DNA of 27,381 nt. Source: Cytauxzoon felis. Lineage: Eukaryota; Apicomplexa; Aconoidasida; Piroplasmida; Theileriidae. Each line of letters begins with the position of its first letter. Position 1 is the stretch's first letter. The position numbers and the translations under genes are program-made. Under the pieces are notes generated by a model, which saw nothing but the letters and a program-made list of their open reading frames with translations, was not told the DNA's origin and did not search any database. The stretch covers positions 1 through 27,381 of the forward strand of contig JAIQCW010000180.1 in assembly GCA_020283715.1 (NCBI GenBank), written 5' to 3'. Of this stretch, positions 1 through 27,381 are shown piece by piece.

Positions 1-171
1 ATTGGACCTCAAGTGGAAATAGAATACCTGGAAGCGATCTACGGGAGCTGGAAGGGGAGGTAAATAGAGAAGGCCACCACGGCGAGTGGAAAGATCTAAA
101 GTGGAGAAGCTGACGGCAGGACAGACCTCTGGTGGAGTCCTAAATGTCGTCGGATGTACCTCAAGTGGAAG
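1..171. repeat. Cassette 1, right half only (cut by window start)
   Basis: Begins with the boundary motif ATTGGACCTCAAGTGGAA and runs through the module CCTGGAAGCGATCTACGGGA (11 bases from the end of the first motif), the AGAGAAGGCC / CCACGGCGAGTGG module, a GCTGACGGCAGGA module and a final CCTCAAGTGGAAG. All modules are in the right-half, G-rich orientation. It lies just upstream of a splice acceptor at 191-192, so it is probably the 3' part of an intron whose left half is outside the window. Confidence 0.8.
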
Positions 172-192
172 ATGATATATATATGTATATAG

Positions 193-2048
193 GTTGGTGA
201 CAAAGGATGTTCGTTATATGTTTATATTACGTTATTTGGTGGATATAGTATTGGGTATATGTTTTGTTGGTATAAATGGTGTAGATGATTTGAGTAAGGT
301 AAGGATGAGTATAGATCCTGAGGTAAAGAATGCATTTAAGATATTGAAGATATTGAGTATGAATATATTATTAGATTGGATATTAGAGAATGTTGTATTA
401 GTATATACATGTTCTATTATAGAATATATTGGTATATTATTAAAAGATTATTATCATATTAATGATCAATCATGTGATTGTATATTATGTTCATATATAT
501 GTTATTATTCATCAAATTATTATATACATAAAGATTGTACATGTTCTAATTCACCTATTATTAATAATTTACCATCTATACCACATTATCTTGAACTTAT
601 TAATAATCTACCATGGGATAAATTTGATCCTAATGGTTATGATGATAAAAATAAAATATTAGCATATATATTACTCAATCTAACAAATCTACTCATGTAT
701 ATCATCAATAAATTACATCAAATCAAAGATACACCCAATCTTAATTGCCGATTCATACTAATACATCTCACCATCAAACTCACACATACACTCATACATA
801 CTCAACACTTTATCATGAATGATAATAATATACATATGATACTACAACTCTATACACTACTCGGGTTCGTTTAATACATATATTATATTATACATTCAAC
901 ACATACTACAATACAACACTCCACTCGAGGTTACAATCCACCTCTTTTCGTCCTGCCGTCAGCTCTCCACTTGAGGTCCAATCCAACTCTTCTTCCACTC
1001 GCCGTGGTGGCCTTCTCTAATTACCTATCTCTAAAGAGTAGAGCCACTCCCAGAGATCGTGGCGGTTGTGTAGTGATTGGACCTCAAGTGGAAACCTGGA
1101 AGCGATCTATGGGAGCTGGAAGGGGAAGTAATTAGAGAAGGCCGCCACGGCGAGTGGGAACAGACGTGGATTGGACCTCAGGTGGAGAGTTATATTGTAC
1201 TTTGTATTGATTGTCTAATATGCATTAATATTTGATTGAATATAGATCTTCAATGACGTGTAAGACGGATGATGAATTATATTTGAAATTAATATCGCAA
1301 AGTTTATATATACTCGATGAAATGCTAAAAAATACACATAATGTACATCTTATTGAATTACATCAAGCACTAGTAAACCTACTCGTTGATAAAATTCCAC
1401 AATACCCTATATATTTAAGTAAGTCACACATATATAATCCTCCACTCGAGGTCCATCCGACGACCGTTAGGTCTCCACCTGAGGTTATTCCACTAGGCGT
1501 GGAGCCTCTTCCAATTACCTCCCCGTAAACGGTATAGCCACTCCCAGAGATCGTGGCGATAATTTAGTCGATTGGACCTCAACTGGACTACCCGCAGCTG
1601 ATTTCAGGGAAGCGGAGGGGGAACTAATTAGAGAAGCTGTCTGCAAGACGAAGAGAGTCGGATTGGACCTCAGGTGGAGACCTAACGGTCGTTGGATGGA
1701 CATAGAGTGGAACATTTGTTATATTCGTTTGATTATATATTATATTTAGGATTGAATATGAAGGTTGATTCTCCATTTAAGCATACGATGGTGGTAATGA
1801 AGCAGGTTGAGCGTATAGAATCGTATGTATTGAAAGTTTTGTATAATTATCAGATGTGGAAGTATTGTCAGACTCATAATATTAATGATTTGCAAGTGAA
1901 TGGGATGTTCTTGGATAAGAATATTATGCTTAAAGAGGAATCATTACGTTTTAGAATATTCACAAATCTCGCCTTTATATTATCTTGTACTATAAGTGAT
2001 ATCAATTCCGACAAGGAATGTAATGACATACTTGCTCTATCAAATTAA
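193..2048 (+). CDS. 3' exons of an unrecognised helical protein (partial)
   Basis: Three exons fit with matching phases: 193-864, 1246-1418 and 1750-2048 (TAA). Donors are GTTCGT at 865 and GTAAGT at 1419. Acceptors are TATAG at 1241-1245 and TTTAG at 1745-1749. Introns of 381 and 331 nt each hold a repeat cassette. The 5' part lies outside the window; exon 193 follows an acceptor AG. The visible ~380 residues are rich in Leu, Ile and Asn and predicted helical, with a Cys cluster (CDCILC, CTC) near the middle of the first exon. I see no convincing membrane segment or family signature. Exon 193-864 begins G-rich and ends C-rich on the + strand, as do other cassette-flanked exons. I do not recognise the function; HEAT-like helical scaffold is only a guess. 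The exon structure is well supported by phase continuity at both junctions. Confidence 0.65.
921..1188. repeat. Cassette 2, fold-back element in intron 865-1245
   Basis: The left half carries CCACTCGAGGTTAC, CCTGCCGTCAGCTC and CCACTTGAGGTCCAATCC. The centre has CTAAAGAGTAGAGCCACTCC and CAGAGATCGTGGCGG. The right half carries ATTGGACCTCAAGTGG, the CCTGGAAGCGATC module and a closing CCTCAGGTGGAG. Positions 995-1024 and 1128-1157 form a 30-bp inverted repeat with 29 of 30 positions complementary and a loop of about 103 nt. The cassette sits ~57 nt from each splice site. Confidence 0.9.
1441..1712. repeat. Cassette 3, fold-back element in intron 1419-1749
   Basis: The outer arms are 1453-1485 and 1667-1699, 33 nt with 32 positions complementary. 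The stem includes a stretch (GACGACCGTTAGGTCTCC and its partner) that I do not see in other cassettes. Inside are CCACTAGGCGTGGAGCC, CCCCGTAAACGG, CAGAGATCGTGGCG and the module CCCGCAGCTGATTTCAGGGA followed by AGCTGTCTGCAAGACG. Left modules read C-rich and right modules G-rich. Confidence 0.9.
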
Positions 2049-2361
2049 GATGGTATGAAAGGTAGAGTACTAATGTTAAAGATTCAAATTCCTGTGTTAT
2101 AATCGCAGAATTTATTTTGGTCAATAATTAATTTCTAAACATGATTTTTTTTTGAAATAATATAAATAAAATTTTATATTCTATACAATTTTTATAATAT
2201 CATTCACAATTATTATAACTTCATATATAGCTTTTACATCCTTAGACAATACGTTGGGGATTCCACACATTAGATGTTTGTTTGGAAATTTACAACGATA
2301 TATTAATGAATGAATTTGGGTATAAATTTGGTGCGCTGATGGCTATGAGAGGTGTAAAATT
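2049..2361. other. Intergenic, AT-rich
   Basis: About 310 bases between the stop of the upstream helical protein and the start of the L7/L12 gene. It is AT-rich with an unbroken T run near 2145. I see no cassette, RNA gene or further exon. It should hold the 3' end of the first gene and the promoter of the second. Confidence 0.5.
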
Positions 2362-3314: not shown

Positions 3315-4639
<1,325 letters not shown>

Positions 4640-5205
4640 TTTATAGGTGAAAAAGTTTGTCTAATTATAATTATCGCACATAAAGGTTGGTATGAAATAA
4701 TCTAATTGGAGATTGTTTTATATCTGAAAAAAATATGAAAATAATTTAATTTAATGTTCATTTGAAGAAGATATTCATTATTCAATTCATTTAAAAGGTG
4801 TGTGTCCTTTTGGGTTAGATCTTAAAATTATTCACGTGCACCAGTAATTGATATAATGGTATGTTAAATAAGTATAATAAATTGTACCTATCAATATAAC
4901 CATTGTCTATTATGCAATTGGTGGATGAGATTGCTACCATATGCGTTCCTATTCAATTATGAATGCACGTGTACTAATTATATACAGCTAGTTTTGATCC
5001 CCAGATCAATTGTAAGGTCTTAAATATTTGTCTTTGTCATATTAAATTTTATGTAAGATTTTTAAAACAATTGTATTATAACTTATTGAATCAAATTTAA
5101 GGTAATATTTTATATTTTATAGATTTTTTTGAAATTGATAATATAATTTGTAATCATTGTATCACACAAAAAAATAGGTGTGCAAATTGTATTGTAGTTT
5201 TCGAT
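4640..5205. promoter_or_regulatory. Upstream region of the giant gene, two CACGTG sites
   Basis: AT-rich stretch of ~565 bases. Two sites stand out: CACGTGCAC at 4833-4841, which contains GTGCAC, and TGCACGTG at 4964-4971. Each is followed within a few bases by a similar AGTAATTGATATA / ACTAATTATATA stretch. GTGCAC and TGCA-type cores are known ApiAP2 targets in Plasmodium; use here is inference. From about 5106 the sequence is open in the frame of the next gene and encodes C-x2-C pairs (CNHC, CANC) just before the chosen ATG. No tRNA or snRNA recognised. Confidence 0.35.
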
Positions 5206-8200
5206 ATGTCTGATTATATTGTTTTTAATCTTCCAGAAAATCTAGATTCCATAGGTAAAAATATTTCAAAATTTAGTGATAATTTAAATGTATTATATAA
5301 AAATGTGTTGGAATATTTACATAATTTAAAACAGGTAATTGTAGGTTATTTTAATGGTAATTTAATATTACAATTGGAATTTGAAGGTAAAAATGCACTT
5401 ATTAAGGTAAATAATAGTCTTGTTGAGGTTAAAAAAAATGAGACTACTGATGATACTAATATATTAATTTTTGGTATCATCTTTATGTTTGTCTATCCTT
5501 TAATTGAACATTGCATTCGTAATGCAAATCCATCTAATGTTTTCCAAATTAGGTTCAGATCGCTTTTGAATGAGGGTAAGAATGCTATTCTTAGTACGTT
5601 CCGTACCTTTTATGTTGATGGGGGTGATTTCCTCCGTTCTAAATTCCAGTCCTTTTGTGAGGATGGAGCAAATGTATTGTATGAATTTAAATCCAGGTTC
5701 GAATCTCCTTTTAGTAATGGAGAAGGTATATTCAGAGTTGTTAGCTCTAGAGTTCATTCTCTTGTAGAGGATGAAGGAAATGATTCCCTTGTAGACGGTA
5801 AAATACCAAATGTATTGTTAAAACTCCCGTCAATTGTTGGGGATAATATTGAAGGTAAATGCAGTGCTTTAGTAAATTGCGTCAGCAATATTAATAATAA
5901 CGATAGGTATTTTCAAATGAGAAGAGATATCATAAATCATATGATAAATTTGAATGAGGTAAAATTAACTATAGAAGAGTATAAGGTATATCTTAATGAT
6001 ATGATACGTAATCTTGAGGTATTGGATAGTAAATATTTCAAAGACTACACGGGCAAAAGGACATGTCTTTTGCCACATATCTGTTCATTGGACAATGCAA
6101 AGGATTCATTACCTGATAATGATCATCAATTTGCAGAGGTTAATATTATGTTTATGTCATTTCTACGTTATACTAGTATAATATATTCGTCATTGTACAC
6201 TACAAGGAATCAGGATACAATTTTCTATCAAGGTTTAAGATCATTGATTGAAGGTATAAAGGCTACATCTAATGATGATGAAGTCTTTGAAGATGAAATT
6301 GAGAGGAAAATTGATTTATCAAATACCCAATTTATTTTCTGTGGTAATAATATATTATTGGATCATTACACATTGGTCAAGTCCATTAAAGCTCAATTGT
6401 GTAGGCATGTCATGGAATGGTTGGCACAACTGAGGGATGTTGAAGGAAATTTAGAGGACCACAATGTTATCCAGACTCAGTTGACTAATTGTATTATGAC
6501 ATTTCAGTATAATCCTAGGGATGTATTGGTTGATGACGATGATCTTGACTATACGCGTATTATACATCCGTACACAAAAATTCTAAATCGACTACGTGTT
6601 ACTGCATCAGATGCTGATGACTGTGATGGTATTAATGTTTGTACTGATACTGAGGGTAAAGTCAGTCTTGAAGTTATACCGAGGGCTGATTTGTTATATG
6701 AAATTGGTGATATATATTACTTTAAGCCAATTTTAAATTATTACATACAGAAAGCGAACAAATTTAATTTAGATGGCGTTCATGATATATATGAAGGGGT
6801 TGATTTTTCTCGTTACACAAGGAAAAATCATAGAAAATGTTGTGAAGGTTCAACAACTTCATCTAGTCCTGATAAACCTTTGTGTTCATCTGGTATAAAC
6901 TTATTACAGGTTCACGTAATGAATGTGATAGATTACATTCTATCATTGGATTTTGACAGGTCAATTCTTAAAAATCGCAAGCCGATGAAGGTTAAGAAAC
7001 CGGAAAGGACCAATAAGTTTGTTAAAAAGGTTAGATTTGTCAATAAACCGACGATAATACCGAAGACTAAATATGTACGAGATCCGTCTATACATATAGA
7101 TCTGTTTTCTAGTAGATCTTCAGACCATAACCTTATGGATCCTTCTACAATATTCCCTGACATGTCATTGGCTTTAGAATTGATTAAGCAGAAGTATGGA
7201 AAAAATTTGGAAGGTTTAAATAATGATATGGGGGTTAGGGATTCAAAGAGACTGAAGGCGTATATTGACATTTTTGAAAGAAAGTTTAATCGAGGTGATT
7301 GTGATTACGATTTAGATGAAAAATGGATTAATGCATTGATTGATATATCATATCCGAGTATAAATTTGGTAAATATAGTGCATAAATTAAATATTTTATT
7401 GAGTCATACATCAGAATATGATCCTTTTGGTTTTATATTTAATAGATTGTCTATATTATTATCTGAGTTATCTTCGATATTGGGTCTTAGTTCTGGTGAT
7501 TCATTTAAAAATAATATTGAATTATCATTGGACATATCATGTGAAATGATTGCTGATAACGTTGAAAGTTTTACAAGGTTGGATTCTATAAAATATTTGA
7601 TTGATATGATTGAAGAAGTAATTAAATCATTGAGTAGTATTTTTATGGATGGGAATAGCCGTATTGATATATTATCTGACTCTAGAAAGGCTGTTGAATT
7701 GTTATATGTTAAGGTTTACTGTATGATACAATTATTACATGTTGATATTGTATGTGATACAAAGTCAATCACTGATTTGAATGGTATAAACACATTAGAA
7801 TATGGTCCTGAGAGTATATATGAGCCTATTTTTGCAATGATTAATGACAAATTGAAAATGATATTTGAACGTGATGATGGTTTCTATTCTTTTGATTTGA
7901 ATGTCCCAAGGCCTGGGACTATTATAAATAATGGTCATGAAGGCGGTGATATCGTTTCTTATTCGGAAAATAATCAAGGGACTCTCTCAAATACTCAAGG
8001 TACGTGTCAATTCCCGATGAGCATCAACATTTCCTTAGAGACAGAGAGGAAGTTATTTTTACATATATTGGACATCATGATCTTCATATAGATGGAGATG
8101 CTCGGCGATGGATCAGTGCTGGAAGTGGCGGCGAGGACGATTACAATAACAATAGCGGGAGATTAATCGGAAGCGGAAGTTGGAGCGACGTCGGAAGTGT

Positions 8201-11200
8201 TGATTGCAGACGAAGTGAGAAAGATGACGACGATGATGATGAAGAAGAAACCGAAACCGAAACCGATTTCTGGGAGGCTGAAGGCAAGCTAATTGAAGAA
8301 GCTGTCTGCAAGACCAACGGTGGAATGACGAATAGGAAGGAGAGTACTAATGTAACTTCGAGTGAATTACCTGGAAGCGATCCACGGGAGCTGGAAGGGG
8401 AAGTAAATAAGAAAGCTGTCTGCAAGACGACCCCAGGTGGAGAAGCTGACGGCAGGAATGTAACCTCGAGTGGAACGGCGGGCGGAGAAGAGAAGGTTGA
8501 AATTAAATTTTGGGACATGGATGAGATTGTAGAAGAAGTACGAGAAGAGGAGGAATCTAAAGCCGATTTCTGGGATGTTGAAGAGAGCAAAATGGAGGAG
8601 GAAGAAGCTGTTACAATTTCACCACTAATTCTTGAACCGGAACCAGTAATTGTCCAAGTTCCAACATTAGTATCAGATCCAGCACCAAGTTATGTAGATG
8701 AGAAGTTCTCGTGTCATGAAGATTATGAAGTCTCGTCTCAAGATGAGGTCTCATGTCAATATCCGGAGGATGTGTCTGATGATTATATGGAATTTATGGA
8801 TGACATATCATGTAGTGATGGTCTTGAAAGGTTTATAAATGTATTATATGATGTATCATTATATATTGAATCAAAATTCATTGATGTGGCGGGATCCCCA
8901 TTTACCTCATTATATGGGGTATTTGGTCATGATGAAGGTGGGTACTTTTTATGGGTTGATGGATTGATAGATGATTTGAATGATGATAATCAATATGGTA
9001 ATCAGGATGATTATTTAATTTTTAATGGATCGCTGGATTTATATGATAATAATGAATCAGATGAATATCAACCATTTAAATATTATCCTAGAAGTAATGC
9101 TACATTATTTAACATGACATCACAAAATGATGGGGATAATTTACCCCATTTATATGTAATTGATGAGGAGGATGAATTTAATGAATGGGATATGAGTTCA
9201 CCTCGTGATGATGATAATGAATTTAATTTACCAAATGGATGGGATTCTAATCCATTTTCATGGGATGATAAATCATTAGATAGTTTCAAATGGAATGATG
9301 ATACATCAAATACATTTTCATGGACAGGTACATCACCTAATACTTTTTCATGTAATGATAAATCACCCCATAGTTTTAAATGGAGTATGGATTCACCCCA
9401 TACGAATGATTTTGATTTATCACAATATATGAATGAAAATATAATATTAATAGATATATCATCAAAGGATGAAGTAATTAATATAAATGAAAATAAATTT
9501 AGTAAAATAGAACTTTTGCCCCATGATTATGTAGATGATACGAATTATGATAATTGTAGGGCTAGTATTTGTAATGTAGAAGATCCAACACAACAATTTA
9601 TAAATGATGAATCTAATAATAAAATATTTTATAATAAAAAACCCCATAATGTTAATAGAAGGTATAATACAACAAATTGCGTATTTAAAAGTATTATAAA
9701 TGATGATATAATACCCAAGCGTTCATATACATATTCCATCACATTAAATAATAATCATAGAAATGATACCCAAATAAACAACGAGACCATAATAAGTGAT
9801 CTACCACTAAGCATAGATTACACCCCACTCACATCATCCATTGTATCACAAAGATCAACCTCGTTAGAAGATACATCCTTTCCAATGCCTCCACTCGAAG
9901 TCCACTCCAACTCTGATCCACCCGAGGTTGTCTTGCAGACAGCTCCTCTATTTAGTTGTCCCTCCGCTTCCCTGAGATCAGCTGCGGGTTCCACTCGAGG
10001 TCCAGTACTACACTTCATTCCACTTGAGGTTACATCCAACATATCCTTAGCACCATCTTCCATCATTCCCATGATGGATGATCCATCACTGCCTTCGCCA
10101 CGATCTCCGGGAGTGGCTCTGCCGTTTACGGGGAGTGAGTTAGGAGAGGCTCCACGCCTAGTGGAAGACAAGGATCTATCCATGGCTACAGATGCTCCAC
10201 TCCTGCTTGAAGATATGTTTACAACATCAGGATCGACTTTAGACACATCTATTGGTGAATTTGAGAGTGTAATCCATGATGATAAGAGAACTATGTCATT
10301 ACCATCAGTTTTAGAACCTTTATCACAATCTCCTACTGTAAAGTTAACTTCAGATTCATTTTATTTAGAATATGTTCATAAACATGAGATGAATAATCCA
10401 TCTATAGATTGTGATGATGGTCCATTGCATGCAGATGATGAAGGATTAATATTAAATAAAAATGATAGCCCATTTACTGGAATTAAAAATATAGCATCTG
10501 ATAAAGATGTAAAATTTTATGAAGAAATGGATAATATAGTTATGGAATATTTAGATGAATATTTTAATGATAATAACCCCGTATTTAATGGGGAATATTT
10601 AGATGATTTTAATGAAGATTTATTTAAATTTAATGCAGTTGATGATAATTTAAAAAATGAATTAGATTATACAAATGATGAAAATAATATTAAAACATCT
10701 ATAGCCACAACAGGCTCCACTGAAGATTCAATATGTATATCGCCCGAAATTATAGGGCAACATTTAAATACAAATGGTAGTTCAAATTTATGGGGTAGAC
10801 CCAAAATAGTTATTTATAATGGTAGTATTTTTATTGATAATTTAATGATTGACAATGATAATGATTCAGTTTATCATTTAATCGCACATTTAACAGGTAT
10901 AGATTATATTTATTCAACATTGTATTATTGGATACATTGTCCAATGTTATGTGATGCCCCACAGTGGAACATCAATTTTAGCTTAACATATTTGTTGTTT
11001 AGCAGTAATACTGTATATTATACATTTAAAGAGGATTTTCGCAATATAAAATTCCGTGGGGATAATTTTAAATTGTTTTTTAAGGATGATTCAAATTCAT
11101 CCAAAGGTAATAATTTCAATGGAGGAAAATCGACAGAAGAAGAAAGAGTCGTCAAATCTTCACAAGAGGAAGTGAAGGTTTGTAAAGGAGATGTGAAATC

Positions 11201-14200: not shown

Positions 14201-16694
14201 TGAACTTGTATTGATGAGGACGCAAGTATCGTTATGTTATCAATACTTTCCAAAGTCTGGCAGTATATCGAGAGTAATTGATGGTAATATAATAATATGG
14301 GATGGCAGCGGTATTGACAAATGCTCCAGCGTTATATTATACTATTCTAAGCTTAAAAAGAAATTTATGGCATACATTTTACAAATTATTGGATATCCTG
14401 ATCATTATTTATATTTTGATATGAGATATAATGGATGGTCATGGATACATGTTAATAATTTCGGTGATTTATTATTAAAATTCGAACGTGATCATCACAT
14501 TACCCCAATTAAATCATTAAAAATATATACTGATCATAATAACGTCACCCCATTATTAATCGGGTACATTACGAAATGTGGGGTAGTATTGGGTGGAAGT
14601 GCGGCGATATTGAAGATTAAATATAAGGGATATAAGAATTGTAAAAAATTGATATCATATAATGGTAATTATGATCCAGATTATTGTGTAAATGCAATCT
14701 ACGAGGAGTTGGAAAAAATTTACACGATTAAATGTTATATTCCAGAGGGTATAGATGAAAATAGAATTATAATAGATGATATACCAATAACATTTGATGA
14801 ATATCCAATACCAATAGAACCTATACCACCAAATTATCCATCAATACAATTTAATTATGATTATACCCCACAATTATCAAATGAATATAAATCAGCATCA
14901 ATGTTTGGTACATTTGAGACACCATCATTTTTAACAGAAAGAGTACAAGGTAAATGGATATGTGTATATGTAATGGAGAATGATGATTTATTATTAATGG
15001 ATAATAATATAAAATTATCATACTCTGATATATTATCAGGTTTAGAAGAATCATATACAAGTGTTAAAGAATATATATTAAATGAATTTAAAAAACCATT
15101 AAAATTAACAGTTGTAAGAGATGATACTATAAATTGTTTAATGTTTAAATTAAAATTAAATATAAATACAATTTATACTTATTTATTATCATTTAATATA
15201 AAATTATTAAAAATTATCTCAAGCAAATTAAAATTTAATATTTGTGATCATTTATACCTATTTTATGTCAAATTAATCATTAATTGGTATATTCTACTCT
15301 ATAAATACAATAAGAAAAAATTATTATACAAACTCTATCATAATCATCATGTCAATATATACCTCAAACATACAATCATCATCATCAATCTCAACTACTC
15401 ACAAAACACCATCAAATTCGTCAAATCCATCCCATATCATAAAAAATATACCCAAATAACATCTCTTCATCATCCACACGAGGTTACAACCACTGTTCCA
15501 CTCGCCACTCCACCTGAGGTCAAATCTACCTCCTCTTCCACTAGGCGTGGAGCCTCTTCCAATTCACTCCCCGTAAACGGTAATACCACTCCCAGAGATC
15601 GTGGCGATATCAACCCGGAAGAACAAACTTCAATTGTAGTAGATGTAACCTCGAGTGGACTACCCGTAGCTGATCTCAGGGAAGCGAACGGTGAGGTAAT
15701 TAAAAGAGGCCGTCTGCAAGACGAAGATAAGGTTGGAGGTGGAATGAGGAAGACAGTGATTGGACCTCGAGTTGAACCCGCAGCTGATCTCAGGGAAGCG
15801 GAGGGGGAAGTAATTAAAAGAGCTGACGGCAGGAATGTAACCTCAGGTGGAGATGTTGATATTATGACAGGTGAATTAATAGATGATATTGATGATCAAT
15901 CTTCTTCTTCTTCTTCGATGGATTATAAGAAGAAGGTATGTATGCATGGTGTTGTAAGGAGGTTGGTTCATCCTACTGAGATGGAGAATCCGAGTTCATT
16001 TTTGAAGGTATATGGTGATCCTTTATGTGATTTGGCTAAGAATACAAAGGTTAATGTTAATATGGGTGTTGATGGTAATTGGCGTTGTTATTCTTGTAAT
16101 AATATCAATTTCCCTAGACGTATATATTGTAATCAATGTTCTACCAAGAGAAATAAGGATGGTGATTCTATAGTATTAAAATATGCCATACAATTATATA
16201 ATAAATATATCAATGGTGATTATAATTTAGAATCTACTATTCGTAATAAAGTTGTAATCAATAAAAAAAATAAATCTAAAGGTAAAAATTATGGGGATTA
16301 TGGGGACATTCAACTTGTTAATAATGATGTGAAATATGAATCATTATCATCTAATGAAGATGATGTAAATAAAAGGTATAATAATGAAGAGTATAAAGAT
16401 GATAAGAATTTAATAATTAATAAAAATCGTTTATATTCTAATACAATTAAGAAAAAAGTTAAATTAAATAATGAAATCACAGGTAATAAATCAACAATAA
16501 ATGATAAAAGTCCAAAGGTAATTAAAAATGATATCATTATAAACACATCATTAAATCAAAAAAATACATTTGCAAATATTACAAAAAGGTCATTAAATGA
16601 AAAATCCAATTCACCAATACATCAAAATAAAAAATCTATACATCACATCAAAATCATAGAAGAACCATCCAACAAGAAAATCAAACACACATAA
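5206..16694 (+). CDS. Giant acidic protein with FAINT-like modules and a RanBP2-type zinc finger; may be more than one gene
   Basis: A 931-codon ORF (5206-7999) joins in phase 1, across a 92-nt intron (8000-8091, GTACGT...CATATAG), to an unbroken reading frame 8092-16694, giving ~3,798 aa if nothing else is spliced. The first part has one hydrophobic stretch (NILIFGIIFMFVYPLIEHC) and no recognised domain. The second part has an acidic start with three F-W motifs (TDFWEAEG, IKFWDMDE, ADFWDVEE), Ser/Asp repeats at 9248-9410, a Pro/Ser/His tract at 11580-11870, and three FAINT-like modules near 12580-12810, 13126-13380 and 14210-14455 (aromatic/IIW core, beta-rich, ending W-x-x-V/L). FAINT proteins in Theileria are mostly secreted host-interaction proteins, but no signal peptide is seen here. 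Cassettes at 8273, 9888 and 15473 are read through in frame; they could be introns that happen to be open. The zinc-finger end is listed separately. Confidence 0.5.
8273..8485. repeat. Cassette 4, right-half modules, in frame in the giant gene
   Basis: Holds AAGCTGTCTGCAAGAC twice, CCTGGAAGCGATCCACGGGA, GCTGACGGCAGGAATGTAAC and CCTCGAGTGGAA, all in the right-half orientation. No left half is seen upstream, and the skew switch found at other cassettes is absent here. It is translated as part of the giant protein (PGSDPRELEGEV, AVCKTTPGGEADGRNVTSSG). Confidence 0.8.
9248..9410 (+). repeat. Imperfect tandem repeat in the giant gene (~36 bp unit)
   Basis: Encodes about five copies of a 12-13 residue unit with the pattern D-K/T-S-x-x-S/T-F-K/S-W/C, such as NPFSWDDKSLDSFKWNDD and SPNTFSCNDKSPHSFKW. 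It sits in the acidic, low-complexity part of the protein. Confidence 0.7.
9888..10167. repeat. Cassette 5, in frame in the giant gene
   Basis: Left part: CCACTCGAAGTCC, GTCTTGCAGACAGCTCC, CTCCGCTTCCCTGAGATCAG and CCACTTGAGGTTACATCCAAC. Right part: CCACGATCTCCGGGAGTGGC, GCCGTTTACGGGGAGTGAG and GGCTCCACGCCTAGTGGAAG. A 94-bp inner segment (about 10023-10116) recurs inverted in cassette 9. The DNA is open in frame and encodes Ser/Pro-rich sequence; the opposite strand is open too (9818-10246). Confidence 0.85.
11580..11870 (+). repeat. C-rich low-complexity tract (Ser/Thr/Pro/His) in the giant gene
   Basis: A strongly C/T-rich + strand tract encoding Ser-, Thr-, Pro- and His-rich sequence (HYHHSTITTHHPPLHSHPPP, poly-Ser). 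It ends abruptly at about 11870 in G-rich sequence encoding acidic and basic residues. It contains no canonical cassette module but shows the same C-rich to G-rich switch. Confidence 0.7.
13896..14098. repeat. Reverse-polarity inverted repeat in the giant gene
   Basis: Arms 13896-13921 and 14073-14098 are complementary at 22 of 26 positions. A second pair, 13895-13909 and 14058-14072, is perfect over 15 nt (CGAACGAAGTGAGGA). Here the left side is G-rich and the right C-rich, the opposite of the cassettes. It encodes Glu/Ser/Gly/Arg-rich then Ser/Pro-rich sequence. Confidence 0.7.
15473..15853. repeat. Cassette 6, in frame between FAINT-like part and zinc finger
   Basis: Left: CCACACGAGGTTAC, CCACTCGCC, CCACCTGAGGTC, CCACTAGGCGTGGAGCCTC and CCCCGTAAACGG. 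Right: AACCTCGAGTGGA, two copies of the GCTGATCTCAGGGAAGCG module (15669 and 15784), ATTGGACCTCGAGTTGAA, GCTGACGGCAGGAATGTAAC and CCTCAGGTGGAG. Open in the giant frame. Its position suggests it may be an intron or gene boundary rather than coding. Confidence 0.85.
15919..16694 (+). CDS. RanBP2-type zinc-finger segment; possible separate gene
   Basis: An ATG at 15919 follows cassette 6 and is in the giant frame. The product would be ~258 aa: MDYKKKVCMHGVVRRLVHP, then a compact conserved-looking region, then a RanBP2-type zinc finger at 16080-16139 (WRCYSCNNINFPRRIYCNQC, matching W-x-C-x2-C-x3-N-x6-C-x2-C), then an Asn/Lys/Asp-rich tail. Such fingers bind ubiquitin or single-stranded RNA; an RNA-binding role is common when Asn and Arg lie between the Cys pairs, as here. 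The segment differs in composition from the FAINT-like region before it, and cassette 6 in between behaves elsewhere as an intron or spacer, so I think an independent gene or a spliced exon is likely. It overlaps the giant CDS entry because the sequence alone does not decide. Confidence 0.5.
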
Positions 16695-17407
16695 TTTATA
16701 CATAAACCATAATCTCCTTATTACATCTTATTCACTTCAACTCTCCTTCCCACCTGAAGTCTATCCTGCCGTCAGCTCCACCTGATGTCCAATCCTACTC
16801 TCTTCGTCTTGCAGACAGCTCTTCTATTTACCTCCCCTCGGATTCCCGTAGATCATCCTCGGTATAATGTCTACCCGGAGGAACAGACATCCACTCGAGG
16901 TTATAACCTTATCTTACACTCGCCGTGGAGGCCTTCTCTATTTACTTCCCAGTAAACGGTAAAGTCAGTCCCGGAGATCGTGGCGGAAGTGTAGTGATTG
17001 GACCTCGAGTGGAAGTGGATTACCCGCAGCTGATCCACGGGAAGCGGAGGGGGAAGTAATTAGAGAAGGCCTCCACGGCGAGTGGGAAGACCTCAGGTGG
17101 AACGCCTAGTGGGAACAGAGGTGTATTTGACCTCAAATTGGATGATGGTAGAGAATTGGGTATATAGAGTACAAACTATGGTATGGATGATGAATTGACA
17201 ATGATATAGTATATAGAATGAATACACATTTAGTATTTGGGTGAACGATAATTAAAATGGATTATAATTGAATGATTTAATGGACATGTGTAATAATTTT
17301 ATTGTAATTTGTATGGAATTCGGTTATGTCTTTCATAATGGCTGCACCCTATTACATTTGTAATATAATTAAATATAACTATAAATATCAATTAATGGCT
17401 AGTAATA
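16695..17407. other. Intergenic region holding cassette 7
   Basis: Between the zinc-finger stop and the next gene. The first ~45 bases are C-rich on the + strand, then comes cassette 7, then a G-rich and later AT-rich stretch (17146-17407) that should hold the promoter and 5' UTR of the next gene. The cassette might lie in a 5' UTR intron, as most others are intronic. Confidence 0.5.
16740..17145. repeat. Cassette 7, longest perfect-looking fold-back
   Basis: Arms 16917-16950 and 17051-17084 are complementary at 33 of 34 positions and contain the GCCGTGGAGGCC / GGCCTCCACGGC form of the module. Other modules: CCACCTGATGTCC, TCTTGCAGACAGCTC, GATTCCCGTAGATCATCC, CCACTCGAGG, AGTAAACGG, GGAGATCGTGGCGG, GCAGCTGATCCACGGGAAGC and CCTCAGGTGGAA. 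Confidence 0.9.
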
Positions 17408-18720
17408 ATGGTAGAATTATTAAGGACAGAGACTAAATATTATTTTGATGTGACTGAGAAGTGTTGGTGGATATTAGGTCGCTGTCACAATGAGTGGAAA
17501 ATGTTACCGAATGAAGATGCGTATAAATTAGGATTATTTAAAGCAGTGAATGAAAATGATTGTAAATTTATAGATACTGATATTGAACATTATAATAAGG
17601 TAGTAAAAGATTTAGTTAAACAACTTGCTGTACAATCCTCCTGTATAGTGAAACATAAGTCTAATGAAATAGTAAAACATGAAGAGATTAATACACCTCC
17701 TGTTGAAAAATATAAGACAACAACATCATCTGATACAATACAATCTCAGATTGATAATTTAATAGCTAGCACCTCAGACATGAAAAGAAATTATCGTGAA
17801 CAACGCTTATCTAGGACTGAACCATGTCCATCTCTAAGAAGTACAGTAAAGAAATTAACATATGTAAATAATGGTGGTCTAGCAGGCTGTCTCAAAACTG
17901 TAGCAGAAGAACGCGAAAAAAATGAATAAATTAAGTACGTAATTCATATATAAATACCATACATCTATAGATATATCATCCACACCTATACAAACCAAAA
18001 ATGCCAAACTTCAAAAAATGATGCAACATGCAAGATCAATGGCCGCACAAACCATCGATAATGATGAAAAAAATAATAAAAATAATAAACCATCAAGTAT
18101 GTTCATAGATTTAAACAATACAAATGAACCATTCTATATACAATGTATAGCAACATCTATACCTGAAGTCATCTTACAGACAGCTCTCCACCTGAGGTTA
18201 CAACCACCGTTGGTCTTGCAGACAGCTCTTCTATTTACCTCCCCCTTCGCTTCCCTGAGATCAGCTACGGGTAGTCCACTTGAGGTTACGTCCTCACTAT
18301 CTTCTACTAAACCTTCACCTCCGCCACGATCTCAGGGAGTGGCTTTACTCTTTAGAGATAGGTAATTGGAAGAGGCTCCACGCCTAGTGGAAAGGAGAGG
18401 TGGATGTAACCTCAGGTGGAGTGGCGAAGATAGTGATTGTAACCTCAAGTGGAGAGAAGTATATTAATCTGTGGTGTATAGTACAATATATCCTTTATAT
18501 TTTTATTGATATGATGATAACAATAGGTTCGGTGAGTAGTAATGATGCGAGGGTGGACAGACATGTATCGGATGTTAAATTTGAGGCATCATCGGACTCA
18601 TCAAGTTCATCACCTGATGATCGTATAAGGGAGGTAAAATCGGATCAAGGTTTGGAGCATATATTATCTCAGCGTTTATCTGTACGTAGAAAGACGGCTA
18701 TAGTGATAAATAATGAGTAA
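17408..18720 (+). CDS. Unrecognised spliced gene (284 aa in the preferred model)
   Basis: Preferred model: 17408-17863, 17904-17934, 17971-18144, 18527-18720, all phases consistent, with introns of 40, 36 and 382 nt. The last intron (GTATAG donor, CAATAG acceptor) holds cassette 8. The protein starts MVELLRTETKYYFDVTEKCW, has an aromatic N-terminal block (WWILGRCHNEWKML), a Lys/Ser/Thr-rich middle, a basic helical part (KLQKMMQHARSMAAQ) and an acidic/Ser-rich end followed by LSQRLSVRRKTAIVINNE. Alternatively the first exon runs on to a stop at 17929 (173 aa), and a second reading frame starts at ATG 17922, overlapping that stop by 8 nt in ATGAATAA. I do not recognise a family. The 18144/18527 junction is the best supported. 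Confidence 0.5.
18161..18455. repeat. Cassette 8, fold-back element in intron 18145-18526
   Basis: CTCCACCTGAGGTTACA at 18186-18202 pairs perfectly with 18405-18421 (17 nt). Other modules: GGTCTTGCAGACAGCTC, CTTCGCTTCCCTGAGATCAG, CCACTTGAGGTTAC, CCACGATCTCAGGGAGTGGC, GGCTCCACGCCTAGTGG, and a final CCTCAAGTGGAG. Left modules C-rich, right modules G-rich. Confidence 0.9.
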
Positions 18721-19047: not shown

Positions 19048-21009
19048 ATGTCAAAACCTAATCATAGAGACCTCGGCATATCAAATAAGGAATATGAAGA
19101 AGCTGTCATATTAGAAAGATTATTTAAACTCATTAAAAAAAATTCATGCTCTACATGTTTATTAAAGGTACGTTTTCAATTCTATCTAACTTCATTTTAT
19201 CATATCATCACCCACCTCATTCTGTCATTTATGTTCCAAATTCCAAATTTCTACTGCATGATCATTAGAATTTAAAATTTTATTATTCTGCAATGACTTA
19301 AATTAATTCCAATACCATTAATATGCCCACATTCGTTTATTTTCGTGCCATGGAACACCCACAAAATACCATCAACATTGTGCATTCTGATCCTCCATTA
19401 CACATTCAACCAGAGGCCCATCATCCCTTCCAATTCCATCAAAGATATAATCACTATTTTCTACACACACCATTCCAACTCTTTTCATCATGCAGAGAGC
19501 TCTCCACCTGAGGTCCAATCCAACTCTCCTTTCCAGTCGCCTCTACCGTAGGTCGTCTTGCAGACAGCTCTTCCAATTATCTATCTCTAAAGAGTAGAGC
19601 CACTCCCAGAGATCGTGCTGAAGGTAGTGATGGATCATCCATCATGGGAATGATGGAAGATGTTCTAAGGATGTGTTGGATGTAACCTCAAGTGGAAGTG
19701 CAACACCCGTAGCTGATCTCAGGGAAGCGGAGGGGGAAGTAAAAGGAACAGGCTCCACGCCTAGTGGAAGGAGATGATGAGGATGTGAGTTGGATTGGAC
19801 ATTGGGTGGTGTGGACAGAATATAATTTATTAAATTTTTATTTTAATTTTATTTATTTTTATATAGAAACCGACACATATTGATTTGGATCGTTATGAAT
19901 TATTATGTTCTACATGTTCTAGGCGTTGTTCATCTAAGGTTCAGATTGGTGATGGTGTTATAACGATGTATGATTTGGAGCGTTTGGAGAAGATATATGG
20001 TTCGAAATCTAAGAAGAAGAGTGGTGATAAGCATAAATCTAAGAGTCGTGCATATTCGGTATCATCTTATAGTTCTTATGATTCTGATGATTCATATAAT
20101 CAACGTCATCGACATAAATCTAAAAAATCCAAAGATGTTCATCGCTATAGTAGGCATTATGATGATGAATATACATCTAGGACTGTACCACTTGCTAATG
20201 ATTATTATAATGATTCTAAGGGTGGTTATTATTCTGATAGGACAGGTTATAATGATGAATTACATAGAAGGGGTTCTAAAGAGAATAGAAGAAGGGATCA
20301 TGATGATAGAAGAGGTTATAATGATGATAATTATAGAGAATCAAGATGGGATAGTCGTGGTAACTACCTCGAACCTTCACATGATAGAGGTAGAAGGTCT
20401 ATAAATGAACGTAATGATGTAAGAGGTGATGTAGATTTACGCAATTATAGAGATCGTGATACATCTAGAGATTTACGTGCAAGAGGTGATGTAGATTTAC
20501 GTGATTATAGAGATCGTGATACATCTAGAGATTTACGCGCAAGAGGTGATGTAGATTTACGTGATTATAGAGATCGTGATACATCTAGAGATTTACGTGG
20601 AAGATTTTTAGATTATCAACAACCACGTAATAATTCTACATTACAGTCACCACAAGTTCATGAACGTTCATCAACATTAACTTCACCAAGATTATCATCA
20701 TCTAGGCGTGATATACCGGGTATGGTTGGATTATTAGCATCAAGTAGGGTACAATATAAAGATGATTGGCCAGTAGTAGATTCTAATAATAGGATCAATT
20801 CAAATATACGTCAATCTATAAATAATAATAATACATATAATAAAAATAGTAATAATCCATTTGCAAAAAAAGATAATCAAAGCAATACATATGATTTTAA
20901 TAATATGAAACAAGCATTGGCAATATGTAATGGACCAAGAGATAATAATCGTCAACATTATAATTATGGTGTTGATACATATAATAATATAAAATATGAT
21001 CGTTATTAA
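19048..21009 (+). CDS. AGFG-like ArfGAP zinc-finger protein, Arg/Asp-rich
   Basis: Two exons, 19048-19167 and 19867-21009 (420 aa), joined in phase 0 across a 699-nt intron (GTACGT...ATATAG) that contains cassette 9. The junction completes an ArfGAP zinc finger: CSTC, 16 residues, CSTC. What follows (VQIGDGVITMYDLERLEKIYG) lines up with the ArfGAP fold of the AGFG/HRB subfamily (VKSIS-M-x2-F...L-x-K-x-G). Residues ~80-230 are Lys/Ser/Arg/Asp/Tyr-rich, including three 20-residue tandem copies. A single NPF motif (NNPFAKK, near 20845) is of the type AGFG proteins use to bind EH-domain endocytic adaptors. The position of the catalytic Arg, five residues after the last zinc Cys, is Ser here, so GAP activity is doubtful. 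A role in vesicle traffic is inferred from the family. Confidence 0.7.
19500..19805. repeat. Cassette 9, fold-back element in intron 19168-19866
   Basis: GTCCAATCCAACTC at 19513-19526 pairs perfectly with 19787-19800. Contains CGTCTTGCAGACAGCTC, CTCTAAAGAGTAGAGCC, CAGAGATCGTG, an inverted copy of the 94-bp segment of cassette 5 (about 19602-19694), GCTGATCTCAGGGAAGCG and GGCTCCACGCCTAGTGG. The ~330 intron bases upstream, after 19270, are increasingly C-rich. Confidence 0.9.
20424..20603 (+). repeat. Three tandem 60-bp repeats in the ArfGAP-like gene
   Basis: Exactly 60-nt period, three copies, differing at only a few bases (GCAATTAT vs GTGATTAT; ACGTGCA vs ACGCGCA). Each encodes the 20-residue unit RGDVDLRDYRDRDTSRDLRA (first copy with N for D). 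High identity points to recent expansion. Confidence 0.9.
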
Positions 21010-21012
21010 TAA

Positions 21013-24000
21013 ATGTATAAATGTAATATTTCATTATTATATAAAAATAATTGTCCAATTGAATGCCCATTTTGGGCACCTAGTATAGTTTGGGATAAGA
21101 TTGGTATTTGTACAACTCAATCTCAATGTAATTTATATAATCCTACATTAAACTATATAAATTTACATAATAAATTATGTCTACCATGTAATATATTCGG
21201 TTGTATTAATTGTACAATTACAAATACCAATATACCAGATTTTTGTATTGAATGTGCAAAAGGTTTTATAAGATCGACAGATGGACGATCATGTTATCTA
21301 ATTAATACAAAATATTGGAAATATTCTATTATTTTAATTCTTATCATCTTATTTCTAATATTATTTATACTAACAACAAGAATTATACTCAATCAATGGC
21401 AATTCAATAAAAATATCAACACACTCAGAATCGCACTCGAACATCGTGAAGATACAACACTCCATCATACAAAAAATAAAAATCCATACAAATTCAATAC
21501 CAATTTATTAAATAAAAATGTATGCGGTATCGGATTCATGCTCTACTCCAGGTATATAATACAATATAAATAATATATATACAAATACTCCACCTGATGT
21601 ACAATACTACCTTCCTTTCCACTCGCCGTGGTGGCCTTCTCTATTTAGTTCCCCTCGGATTCCCTGAGATCATCCTCGGTTTGTCTACCCGGAAGAACGT
21701 AGATGTCCAACCCCTAAGAACAGGAATTCTACCCGAAGTCCAATACACCTCTCTTCGTCCTGCAGACAGCTCTCCACCTGAGGTTACAACCTTGTCTTCC
21801 TCTTGCAGAGGGCCTTATCTATTTACTTCCCCTTCCAGCTCCCGTGGATCGCTTCCAGGTATTCCACTTCCACTTGAGGTTACATCCTCACTACTCTTCT
21901 CACCGCCACGATCTCCGGGAGTGGCATTACCGTCTACGGGAAGTGAATTAGAGGAGGCTCCATGCCTAGTGGAACATATAGTGATTGGACCTCAGGTGGA
22001 TGTGTATTGTACTTCAGGTATAGATTCCTCAACTAGACATCATAATATTTCAATTATTTTTAGGTTTTTGGTGTTTATATCACTTGTTATGTCGATAATA
22101 TTATTGTTGAATTTATTTCATAAGCCTTTACCATGTTCGAAATTATTGAGGTCATTTAAGGATCCATTGGTATTACCAGAAGATTCATTAGATGAATCAT
22201 CATCATTGATACAATATTTTATACCGGGTGATCAATATCTTACAGAGGATATATTAAAACTTAATAATGTTGATGATGCTATTAAATGGAATGTTGAATA
22301 TTATAGTAAAGAAATGAATAATATAACCTTCAAGATTTATATTATTGTTATGTTCATTACTGTTATTTATATGTCTATACAACGTAAATTTATCAAAACT
22401 AATGTTGATGGTAATCTACAAGTCAAAAATTTCACACTCTTATTCAAAATTATAAATCCACAACAAATCACTGAAGATGATCTCAAAATTATCATCAAAA
22501 ATATCAGTAATGCTAATATACACTCCATCACACAATGCTATAATTATAAAATGTGCATCAAAGATGTCAATGATATACTCAACTCTATCAATACCAATAA
22601 CGAAATCAGCTATGTAAGTCATATACCATACATATAAATATATTAACACCCCATTCGATGTCTAATCCTCTCTCTTTTCCACTCGTCTCCACCTGAGGTC
22701 CAATCCACCTCCTCTTCGTCTTGCAGACAGCTTCCTCTATTTACCTCCCCCTCCGCTTCCCTGAGATCAGCTGCGGGTATTCCACTTGAGGTCATAATCA
22801 CTGTATTCCACTACTTCATTTTTACCTCTAAAATCTGAAGGAATTTCATTATTTTCAAATAAACTACTGACAATATCTCAATGAGTATTGGATGAATTAT
22901 AAATATCAATGCACCATTGAAAAGGAATTTGATGATTGTATTTAATATACTCATCCTCACTTTATTCCAATTTATTTCCATTGAGATATCCTAATAAACA
23001 TGAAAATCGTCACTTTATCCTTATCTCGTTGTGATTAGATTTTATACCTGGAAGCGATCTACGGGAGCTGGAAGGGGAAATAAATAGAATAAGCCTCCAC
23101 GGCGAGTGGAAAATAGAGGTAGATCGGACCTCAGGTGGAGACGAGTAGAAAGGAAGGTGGAGATGATGAGGATTTGACATCGAGTGTAATGTTGATATAT
23201 TTATATTTCATAATTTCATATAGATAAATTTGGATAGTGTTGTGAGGGTGAATGAGATGATAAATGGTATGGGTATATATTTTGTTACATTTGAGGATAT
23301 AAATGATAAATTGCGGGTTATGAATGATAGATTTAATTATAATGGTATAAAGATTAGTGATTGTATGGTAGATCCTGATAAGGTTATATGGGATAATATT
23401 GGTAATGATAATAATTTGAAATTAAAAATTATATTAATACCATTTATTATTATATTATTAATTATATTTTGGACTATATTATTTTTATACCATATGCTTT
23501 ATATACATTACATACTACTATGTCTTATATTATGGAAATTATTATATTAAGTATTTATATAGAATTTGGTAATTATATTGTTAGTATTATATTAAATAAA
23601 TTTGTAAAGAATATGGGGTTTATTGATATAGATTCTATGGATAGTTTTATAATGTGGTCAAATTATATAATAAAATTAATAAATATAGGGTTAAATATAA
23701 TATTAACACATTTAAATAATTATGGGGGTAGTAATAAAATAATAAAAACAATAGATATTATACAATATTATAATACAATTACATATAAAATAGGTGAAGA
23801 AATATCATTTAGTTTTAGTTTAATATTATATATAATTGATATATTATTATTACCAAATTTATTATTATTATTTAATTTATATATATTACCTATAATATAT
23901 TCATATCTAATATTAACATTAGATTTTAATATTAATAAATCTTGTTTATTATTAGAATATCCTAAAATTAATTTAAATCATTTATATTGTAATTCATTAT

Positions 24001-24479: not shown

Positions 24480-24520
24480 TATTTAGCATGCCATAATATA
24501 AATGATTACATTACTAATCT

Positions 24521-25072
24521 CTTCGTCCTGACGTCAGCTCTTCCACAGAGGTCCAATCCAACTCTCTTCCACTCGGCGTGGAGGCCTCTTCTAATTACCT
24601 ATCCCTAAAGGGCAGAGCCACTCCCAGAGATCGTGGCCTCTTCTGTTTAGTTCCACTTCCACCTCCCATAGATCGCTTCCAGGTAATGAACTTTTATCAG
24701 ACTCGTTGAGGAGTATACGAAGGAGTTGGATATGAAACATGAATGCTTTTGTAATGTACCACCTCTAGGCACGGCAATCAGTAGTTTATTTCAGACATTT
24801 GGTAAAGGTGTTAAATCATGGTTTACTACTCTTTTTTCAGGCAATGGTAATTCATCAGGAGGCACTGCATCTACACAAACCCAGGGGAATGAGGAATCAA
24901 TATGCAAGTGTTGTAACGGCAAAGAAGAAGAAGGAAACTGCTTAAAGGATGGAAACACGTGTAATGTATGCAATATAAAGTAGATCTCAAGTGGAATACC
25001 CGTAGCTGATCTCAGGGAAGCGGAGGGGGAAGTAAATAGAGGAGCCGTCTGCAAGACGACCTCAGGTGGAAT
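24521..25072. repeat. Cassette 12, split; encloses a small ORF
   Basis: Left half 24521-24691: CGTCCTGACGTCAGCTC, CCACAGAGGTCCAATCC, CCACTCGGCGTGGAGGCC, CTAAAGGGCAGAGCC, CAGAGATCGTGGCC, TAGATCGCTTCCAGG. Right half 24984-25072: CTCAAGTGGAATACCC, GCTGATCTCAGGGAAGCG, GCCGTCTGCAAGACG, CCTCAGGTGGAA. Between them lies a 290-base non-repeat insert with an ORF. It follows the channel gene, not within a demonstrated intron. Confidence 0.85.
24702..24983 (+). CDS. Small Cys-rich ORF inside cassette 12, unrecognised
   Basis: The frame from ~24702, or from ATG 24732, to TAG 24983 encodes 83-94 residues: an acidic/basic start (LVEEYTKELDMKHEC), a CFCNVPPLG motif, an amphipathic stretch (SSLFQTFGKGVKSWFTTLF), a Gly/Ser/Thr/Gln linker and a Cys-rich end (CKCC, CNVCNIK). 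Eight Cys in total. No signal peptide or known family. TTTTATCAG at 24692-24700 could be a splice acceptor, making this an exon of something larger. GC content is higher than in neighbouring genes. The left and right cassette halves abut it almost directly, as if it were carried by the element. Whether it is expressed is unknown. Confidence 0.4.
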   Translation, partial: LVEEYTKELDMKHECFCNVPPLGTAISSLFQTFGKGVKSWFTTLFSGNGNSSGGTASTQTQGNEESICKCCNGKEEEGNCLKDGNTCNVCNIK

Positions 25073-25397
25073 GAAGAGTAAAATAGAGGCGGTTGTAACT
25101 TCAATTATAGTGACAGTATAAAGAAGATATCGTATAAGACGATAAGTATAATATTATAATAATTAATATATATATAATAACTATAATATAATATATAACT
25201 ACTAACATGATGTGAAGTATACTAACTACATAAGATAACAATACATTTATATAAATAAATACATTTCATAAAATTATTAAAATATTAAACTTCAGTTATA
25301 AATGATTATATTAATTTAGTAATATGATATTATAATTATAATAGTTGTATTATAGTAGTTAAATTAATTATAAACACTAAATGTGGGAATGACTTCT
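25073..25397. other. Intergenic, very AT-rich
   Basis: Roughly 325 bases between cassette 12 and the NudC stop. Nearly all A and T from 25140 on, with simple TATAATAAT-type runs. It should hold the NudC 3' UTR. Nothing else is recognised. Confidence 0.5.
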
Positions 25398-26321: not shown

Positions 26322-27002
26322 TTTCTTCCTCATCTAACAATATTTGTGCTGATGTTATTGATTCTTTCACTGATAATTTGACTCTTCTTATATATTCACT
26401 ACGATTTTCTTCGAATAGACATGCGGCTTCATTATTTGCTGGACTTTTTGTATTTGGATCAGTTAACAACGACTGAAGGAGATTATATTTAATTTAGTTG
26501 ATTATAAATAATACTTTAAGATAATATACTTCAACTAACCTGAATTGATAATAATATGCTGGATACATCAAAAACAGGACACCATTCGTTTTGTAATATG
26601 TCTAGGCATATTGAACCATCTTGGTAAACTATTGGAGGTGATATGATGTTTTAAATATTAGACATTACCATTTGGATGGAATATTTTGGTGATAAACTTG
26701 ACGAGTGGTGCTTTATTTGGATATTCTGGTGGGAAATTTAATGATAATGTAAAGATTCCTATAAATGTGTAGATATATAATGGTATAATATGAGATATAT
26801 ATAAACCTCCTTCCCACTCTGTATTATTTGGACCTAATATTACAGCTTCCCAATTGAAAATATTTTCATCTATTGGACTTGCGCATATACCATCTGGAAT
26901 ATCCCTTTGTAGCTTTCGCAAATCTATCATTAATCTTCTTTCCTAGAGATTATTATGAACAAAAATTTTATTTATACTTTGACTTACAGCATCAGTGCCC
27001 AT
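26314..27002 (-). CDS. RAD6/UBE2A-type ubiquitin-conjugating enzyme E2
   Basis: Five exons: complement of 26988-27002, 26807-26942, 26669-26758, 26540-26628 and 26314-26472; 162 aa. All four introns (45, 48, 40 and 67 nt) have GT-AG ends and phases agree. The UBC fold is complete: [65 protein letters not shown] with the active-site Cys after the HPN box, then [17 protein letters not shown]. The wording of LDILQN-x-W and SPAN identifies the RAD6 group, which ubiquitinates histone H2B and PCNA. An acidic tail (LLDEEENE) resembles that of yeast RAD6 but is short. Exon 1 is only five codons; the joined sequence E-R-R-L-M matches the family. Confidence 0.93.
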
Positions 27003-27090
27003 ACGTAAATTTTATTATTTTTAAACCACATTACATGTTATACCCATATTTTAATTGATAAATATTATAGTATAATTAAATTTTATATAA
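27003..27090. promoter_or_regulatory. Divergent promoter region (E2 / PPIL4-like)
   Basis: 88 AT-rich bases between the divergent starts of the E2 and the RRM protein. No motif recognised. Confidence 0.35.
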
Positions 27091-27381
27091 ATGTTTGAAA
27101 ATACAGAGCCTTTGCCTGATGAAAAGGAGGCATTAGCTAAGGAATTTAAAGAAATTGAAGAAATCAAAGCACGTGAAGCTAAATCACGAGCAGTTGTTCT
27201 AGAAATCTTAGGAGATTTACCAGATGCAGATATCACACCACCAAAAAATGTCCTCTTTGTATGTAAATTAAATCCCGTCACAGAAGAAGGAGATCTCAAA
27301 ATCATTTTCTCCAGGTTCGTTTACCTAAAGAATATAGTCACTCCTCCACTCGAGGTCAAATCCAACTCTTCTTCCACTCGG
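27091..27381 (+). CDS. PPIL4-like RRM protein, first exon (partial)
   Basis: Exon 27091-27314 (74 codons + 2 nt) with donor GTTCGT at 27315; the intron carries the start of cassette 13. The sequence [20 protein letters not shown] followed by [14 protein letters not shown], then DLKIIFSR, matches the linker and RRM start (RNP2) of PPIL4-type cyclophilins. In PPIL4 an N-terminal peptidyl-prolyl isomerase domain precedes this; here only ~20 residues ([15 protein letters not shown]) come first, and the divergent E2 starts 88 bp upstream, leaving no room for the domain. So it is either a PPIase-less homologue or begins with distant exons. Likely a nuclear pre-mRNA-binding protein. Confidence 0.75.
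27343..27381. repeat. Cassette 13, left end (cut by window end)
   Basis: CTCCACTCGAGGTC, AAATCCAACTCTTC and TTCCACTCGG, in left-half orientation, 28 nt into an intron of the PPIL4-like gene. The exon before it is C-rich at its end, as at other cassettes. Confidence 0.85.

Follow-up and report, generated by a model that had tools for sequence, protein, structure and literature searches.

What are the GC-richer fold-back cassettes that recur along a 27,381-base contig of the piroplasm Cytauxzoon felis (JAIQCW010000180.1), and how did they come to be there? A preliminary description of this contig, analysed here in its entirety (contig C106, hereafter the window), had reported thirteen sites sharing a small set of modules and interpreted them as an undescribed family of non-autonomous foldback elements spread through introns. 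Searches of the genome (8.62 Mb, 181 contigs) showed that the family is C. felis-wide, with thousands of mosaic fold-back copies far beyond the window, and that its clusters are not only intronic but also lie in open frames of conserved genes. We consider it probable that they form one dispersed, non-autonomous, translation-compatible fold-back family of selfish DNA, mosaicised by recombination.

A self-comparison of the window made without the modules recovered all thirteen sites (1-121, 909-1200, 1441-1688, 8257-8474, 9890-10172, 15496-15853, 16752-17134, 18168-18441, 19470-19776, 21587-22003, 22647-23145, 24518-24693, and 24981-25079), together with a further left arm at about 27344 that is cut by the window end, and the shared modules were found again within these clusters. 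The single boundary motif separating the modules, the 12-base ACCTCRRGTGGA, had 33 exact copies in the window (16 forward, 17 reverse) and 8,274 in the whole genome (4,106 forward, 4,168 reverse), where about one copy was expected by composition and the reversed-pattern control gave none. Core module C had 2,557 exact genome copies (1,306 + 1,251; reversed control 0). With these counts, the family is clearly not confined to this locus.

Clusters were delimited in a sample consisting of the window and 20 stretches of 10 kb (227,381 bases), self-compared all-against-all without the previously proposed modules, cluster bases being positions matched at least five times elsewhere in the sample. A fuzzy module scan missed some copies, and the cluster set rests on the self-comparison instead. 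Repeats covered 30,204 of the 227,381 bases (13.3%; bootstrap over the 20 stretches 9-17%), in 116 clusters with a median length of 250 bp and a GC content of 48% inside, against 29% outside. All 116 clusters matched another one, partly by construction as clusters are defined by repeat matches, and 109 had a match over at least 100 nt, with a median best identity of 88%. As the 20 stretches sit on nine contigs, each with matches in an earlier genome search, the extrapolation was scaled by motif density (0.96 per kb genome-wide, 1.10 per kb in the sample); by our own arithmetic, it amounts to about 3,800 clusters, 1 Mb or 11.6% of the genome. Two of the 20 stretches were element-free (L042, C86:30001-40000; L047, C85:20001-30000) and the others reached 26%. 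In each of these two, a long frame (1,354 and 997 aa, respectively) is cut off by the stretch end, and they are possible repeat deserts.

The copies follow a common grammar. The boundary motif closes each unit, reading TCCACYYGAGGT in the left arm and its reverse complement in the right arm. Heads A, B, and C are alike in a GATC....GGGA stretch and in a linker of the GGGGAAGTAAATAGA type, after which comes one of the interchangeable tails T1-T4. The opposite orientation of left and right halves, previously seen in the window, was maintained elsewhere: neighbouring motifs in the sample were oriented −− in 125 pairs, ++ in 120, −+ in 81, and +− in only four (326 of 330 convergent), and none of the 59 motif pairs within 300 bases, among 100 places listed on contigs C1-C4, was of the +− type. 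With these four exceptions, inverted terminal motifs are present as in miniature inverted-repeat transposable elements (MITEs) and terminal-inverted-repeat DNA transposons. In one subfamily, the core is AT-rich and measures about 250 bp; nine of the 12 candidates aligned for it are convincing. The idea that half-clusters are the two ends of larger composite elements drew on few cases, neighbouring halves being left-then-right in four pairs and right-then-left in two.

The claimed restriction to introns was only partly right, because three of the thirteen window sites (8257-8474, 9890-10172, and 15496-15853) lie inside one 2,906-aa open frame; others are apparently intronic. Window introns were read by eye, as automatic intron calls (models for 81 of the 116 clusters) were noisy, many of them visibly wrong, and no count from them is used. 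In the sample, an uninterrupted frame ran the whole length of 37 of the 94 clusters of at least 150 bp, where mononucleotide shuffles predicted 10.2. Among the 85 testable ones (those with 150 nt on both sides), 18 kept a frame open through the element and 150 nt each side. None of these 18 clusters had a GTA[AT]GT donor within 120 nt upstream, compared to 33 of the 67 others when both strands were considered. A single frame of 2,545 aa, in which a CPSF_A domain was recognised, accounted for six of the 18, and other host frames carried PSME4 mid HEAT, PHD-like zinc finger, and ankyrin plus methyltransferase domains. One further host frame had a marginal metallophosphatase match and may, on our own reading of that match, be Mre11-like; six more frames, one of them without an element, gave no Pfam match. 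In the ankyrin-methyltransferase, the element peptide was absent from the homologues of Theileria parva and three Babesia, within a linker variable among them, T. parva having an unrelated long linker at the element position. The element peptide of stretch L033 had no match in the protein database under a length limit that left out the antigen cf76.

A search with a longer element query did reach cf76, the lead vaccine antigen of the parasite, within its element part (67% over 82 residues, among 7,998 top word-sharing candidates scored). The antigen itself was found in the genome at 100% over 723 aa (C114:6540-8708), and that search produced another 94 matches, most of them to element parts and some with internal stops (62 of 3,347 candidates scored). 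The cf76 match identifies the genome as C. felis; a NudC gene had suggested the Theileria clade. With 8.6 Mb, the assembly is smaller than the 9.1 Mb given in PMC3748084 and may be another release. Two element copies occur in each of two cf76 alleles, at about residues 178-280 and 573-662 (sequence P0012). The isolate sequences are genomic DNA, and two alleles were compared: the deposited proteins measure 723 and 706 aa, the length difference lying in and around the element, and 61 of 730 alignment columns differ, of which 59 fall in columns 101-300, either inside copy 1 or upstream of it. Whole units of copy 1 differ between the alleles; copy 2 is identical. In the cf76 passages of PMC3748084, the open reading frame (ORF) was amplified from cDNA as a single exon, one printed primer contains the boundary motif, and a 30-bp tandem repeat was present in ten of 11 samples and single in one. 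We take this repeat to be the T2-plus-boundary unit, which occurs twice in copy 2 and measures 33 bp by our own count. By position, copy 2 falls in the C-terminal cf76 fragment recognised by survivor sera.

In the proposed mechanism, an element would consist of a core, either module C or the AT-rich one, between arms of short units each closed by the boundary motif, and would insert into introns, intergenic DNA, and exons. With a single stop-poor reading phase common to the units, some insertions would extend the host protein in frame, lengthening rather than breaking it, and so would persist. Ectopic gene conversion and unequal exchange among thousands of mutually homologous copies could then reshuffle their cores and arm units, and mosaic order and variable unit number would result. 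We infer that elements reached new sites by transposition, that gene conversion did the shuffling, and that copies outside cf76 are translated.

Several observations weigh against this interpretation. As stated in the preliminary description, no target-site duplication was detected, and two methods agreed on this: for k = 2-10, the own flanks of 80 clusters (including one row with ill-defined ends) were no more alike than cross pairs, and the longest shared flank word of 76 clusters did not differ from that of cross pairs. The DDE_3, DDE_Tnp_4, and MULE profiles had no genome match, prokaryotic controls being detected in 3, 1, and 3 of 14 cases, respectively, and neither had Y1_Tnp and Phage_integrase (tyrosine recombinase), whose controls were detected; this negative is limited, as the control of the P-element profile was silent and the search did not extend to hAT, piggyBac, and Helitron. 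RVT_1 was found in a single gene, which also carries Telomerase_RBD and is a telomerase. The cluster outer ends are ragged, the hexamer score marks both flanks as clearly coding in only 8 of the 18 open-frame clusters, and left-to-right motif spacing in these clusters is divisible by three in 7 of 17 cases and not in 10, as would be expected from the use of two frames by the right motif. In addition, the orientation rule could also reflect selection for a hairpin, and no DNA-level empty site in a close relative was found.

The earlier statement that no transposase or reverse transcriptase is visible was supported for the profiles with an informative control, telomerase being the one exception. 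Since this was the sole reverse transcriptase gene found in the genome, a retroelement was rejected. A non-autonomous foldback element is the likeliest kind, unproven as no mobiliser, target-site duplication, or empty site was found. A bolder version is put forward only tentatively, and we would not expect all of it to hold: a fold-back family moving without target-site duplication or recognised transposase (e.g. by a hairpin or recombination route), in about a tenth of the genome, and giving, through shuffling and in-frame insertion, many, perhaps hundreds, of unrelated proteins including cf76 a shared, isolate-variable peptide cassette. The telomerase gene lies at L051:1-2826 (contig C56), and the 3.3 kb around it contain no exact boundary motif or core loop.

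The same absence of target-site duplications and of mobility enzymes among the profiles searched would suit an origin without transposition, in which a host-derived inverted-repeat module was multiplied by recombination, template switching, and gene conversion alone. Local copying was indeed observed. Near-identical cores with different outer arms were found about 7 kb apart on contig C45 (189 nt at 99.5%) and on different contigs (190 nt at 97%). Moreover, a 343-bp block made of an element and adjoining unique lysine-rich coding sequence occurs at two different places of the CPSF_A frame (L050:3758-4100 and L050:6011-6353; 98% alike). Such copies would be expected from gene conversion or template switching whose endpoints lie in the arms. 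However, the elements occupy thousands of sites, some of them in unrelated genes, and three copied pairs inspected had no flanking homology beyond the arms or the adjoining unique sequence. Because gene conversion alone makes no new sites, first arrival at such sites needs another process, and we regard multiplication without transposition as unlikely.

Another explanation, which we rate as distinctly less probable again, is that the host keeps the arms because an RNA hairpin brings splice sites together and aids splicing. The folding data partly favour it. Compared to shuffles, two stretches of the window that were read as introns have far more stable folds (868-1244, z = -13.7; 1418-1749, z = -11.3), and in the module C hairpin pairing is kept through two-sided changes at two positions (81 distinct copies), with 97.2% paired compared to a shuffle mean of 82.2% and maximum of 86.7% (2,000 shuffles). 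Over 38 clusters (every second of 80, with 15 shuffles each), however, the median z was only -4.0 and ranged from -19.4 to -0.28. Own arms paired no better than arms of different clusters (mean = -68.4 and -71.4 kcal/mol, respectively; median rank 42 of 76, in 76 clusters). Arm complementarity is a property of the whole family and is not adjusted per locus. With a cut-off close to the 90th percentile of shuffled sequence, 47 of the 116 clusters had both flanks scored as coding, on the same strand for 39 but on opposite strands for 8, and the open-frame copies without a typical donor and the reportedly single-exon cf76 also argue against a role in splicing. A known structured RNA was ruled out by an Rfam search of the window, in which the one match (E up to 5) was far below the gathering score and outside the elements.

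The units could alternatively be a shuffled coding domain selected for its peptide (DLREAEGEVN, ATPGDRG, PPEV, TSGG), with the other copies as by-products. The presence of the element in a surface antigen, cf76, points in this direction, as does the frame lock of the motifs in the 18 open-frame clusters, where 26 of 27 left motifs are read as P-P-E-V and 37 of 49 right motifs as T-S-G-G, the remaining 12 using a second frame. Like-oriented motif spacing in these clusters was divisible by three in 41 of 63 pairs (p = 5e-7). Elsewhere, the preference was weak (74/59/49, i.e. 74 of 182 divisible by three; p = 0.07). The codon-position test was mixed, with a third-position excess suggestive in module B but not in module A, and 67 of the 85 testable clusters lie outside such frames. 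Selection for the peptide as the origin of the family is therefore given very little weight. Finally, an assembly or contamination artefact, conceivable for a fragmented assembly of 181 contigs, was ruled out and has a negligible probability, as the cf76 ORF with both copies, obtained from cDNA according to PMC3748084, matches the genome at 100%, the second deposited allele also has two copies, and frames stay open through clusters.

The dispersed fold-back family was further compared with known systems. It resembles MITEs in its inverted ends, high copy number, and lack of a visible mobility gene of its own, but differs from them in that its length is not fixed, it has no single end pair, and target-site duplications were not found; the informative profiles also gave no matching transposase. 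The Drosophila Foldback and Galileo elements have long inverted arms of short subrepeats, with variable arm length and a variable middle, and make target-site duplications. The C. felis family shares this arm architecture, but no duplications were found in it (80 clusters).

Rickettsia palindromic elements (RPEs) are described as short palindromic repeats inserted in frame in unrelated genes and lengthening the protein; they are bacterial, about 150 bp long, and total 44 copies in ten families in Rickettsia conorii (PMC10969869 and PMC2996958, in the parts on these elements). The C. felis family shares the in-frame presence of a palindromic element in unrelated genes (18 of 85 clusters, five Pfam host frames, and cf76), while it is eukaryotic, counts thousands of copies mostly outside open frames, and has variable modular arms and two core kinds. 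The likeness, drawn from descriptions, concerns the way of working, and membership of the RPE family is not claimed. PARCEL repeats, palindromic protein-coding DNA proposed to shuffle within genomes (PMC2996958), are similar in being palindromic DNA read as protein, but are tandem 25-residue repeats in function-unassigned ORFs, whereas in C. felis mosaic insertions are seen both in conserved genes and in non-coding DNA. Introner elements, as those of Amoebophrya, are inverted-repeat elements spread through the introns of an alveolate genome, with direct repeats overlapping exon/intron boundaries in the account given there (PMC7789003). They were ruled out, as the C. felis element ends lie about 20-50 nt or more inside the window introns (by eye) rather than at splice sites, and as open frames and the single-exon cf76 contain copies too.

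The "undescribed" status held, as no description of the C. felis fold-back family was found in the open-licence literature searched. In the repeat-related text of PMC3748084, PMC6310948, PMC10058880, and PMC9860807, only the 30-bp cf76 repeat was mentioned. A survey of 64 apicomplexan genomes reports that C. felis is free of transposable elements and that class II elements are missing from the Apicomplexa as a whole, MITE candidates having been discarded as false positives (PMC9141347).

Within the window, the clusters vary in unit order (written with − for left-arm and + for right-arm units). The first is a right half cut by the window start (1..171, forward strand; motif 6-17, head B 27-49, tail T2 109-121, outer boundary 158-169). 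It is followed by two full clusters, both apparently intronic: 909..1200 (−−−++; intron about 868-1244 by eye), with an inverted pair 963-1024/1128-1189 that is 89% complementary, and 1441..1712 (−−+++; intron 1418-1749 by eye). The 2,906-aa frame (7974..16694, forward strand), whose sole domain signal is a RanBP zinc-finger below the curated cut-off, contains a cluster of right-arm units only (8257..8474, forward strand; +++), a cluster with a left arm, head A (9965-9982), core C (10099-10117), and tail T4 (10148-10165) at 9889..10172, and a −−+++ cluster at 15473..15853 with tail T4, core C, heads A at 15669 and 15783, and tails T1 and T2. Downstream of its stop at 16694 lies a −−−++ cluster (16749..17134). 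Three further clusters are apparently intronic: 18158..18453 (−−++; GTATGT donor near 18097), 19470..19812 (−+; between two coding-looking stretches, by eye), and 21587..22003 (−−−−−+; donor near 21552). The cluster at 22647..23145 (−−++) has an AT-rich core of about 250 bp and is one of the nine aligned copies of that core subfamily. A left half (24518..24693, reverse strand) and a right half (24981..25079, forward strand), the latter directly after a frame at 24690-24983, may be two halves of one cluster; this short frame is cysteine-rich and stands between the halves as if within one split element. The last feature is the start of a left arm (27344..27381, reverse strand), cut by the window end. 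Two other observations concern the rest of the window. A 60-bp tandem repeat at 20421-20604 (3.1 copies, 95% alike), inside the frame 19867-21009, is unrelated to the fold-back family, and 3976-4640 looks by eye like a U1 snRNP C-type zinc-finger gene, whose short introns are element-free.

A family spread over roughly a tenth of the genome changes the survey picture of an element-free C. felis, and C. felis gene models may need re-examination. The C-terminal fragment of cf76 serves as serology and vaccine material, and the element peptide recurs in many other C. felis frames; some cf76 antibody reactivity may therefore target the repeat and cross-react. More generally, the family offers a model of selfish DNA tolerated inside conserved eukaryotic genes.

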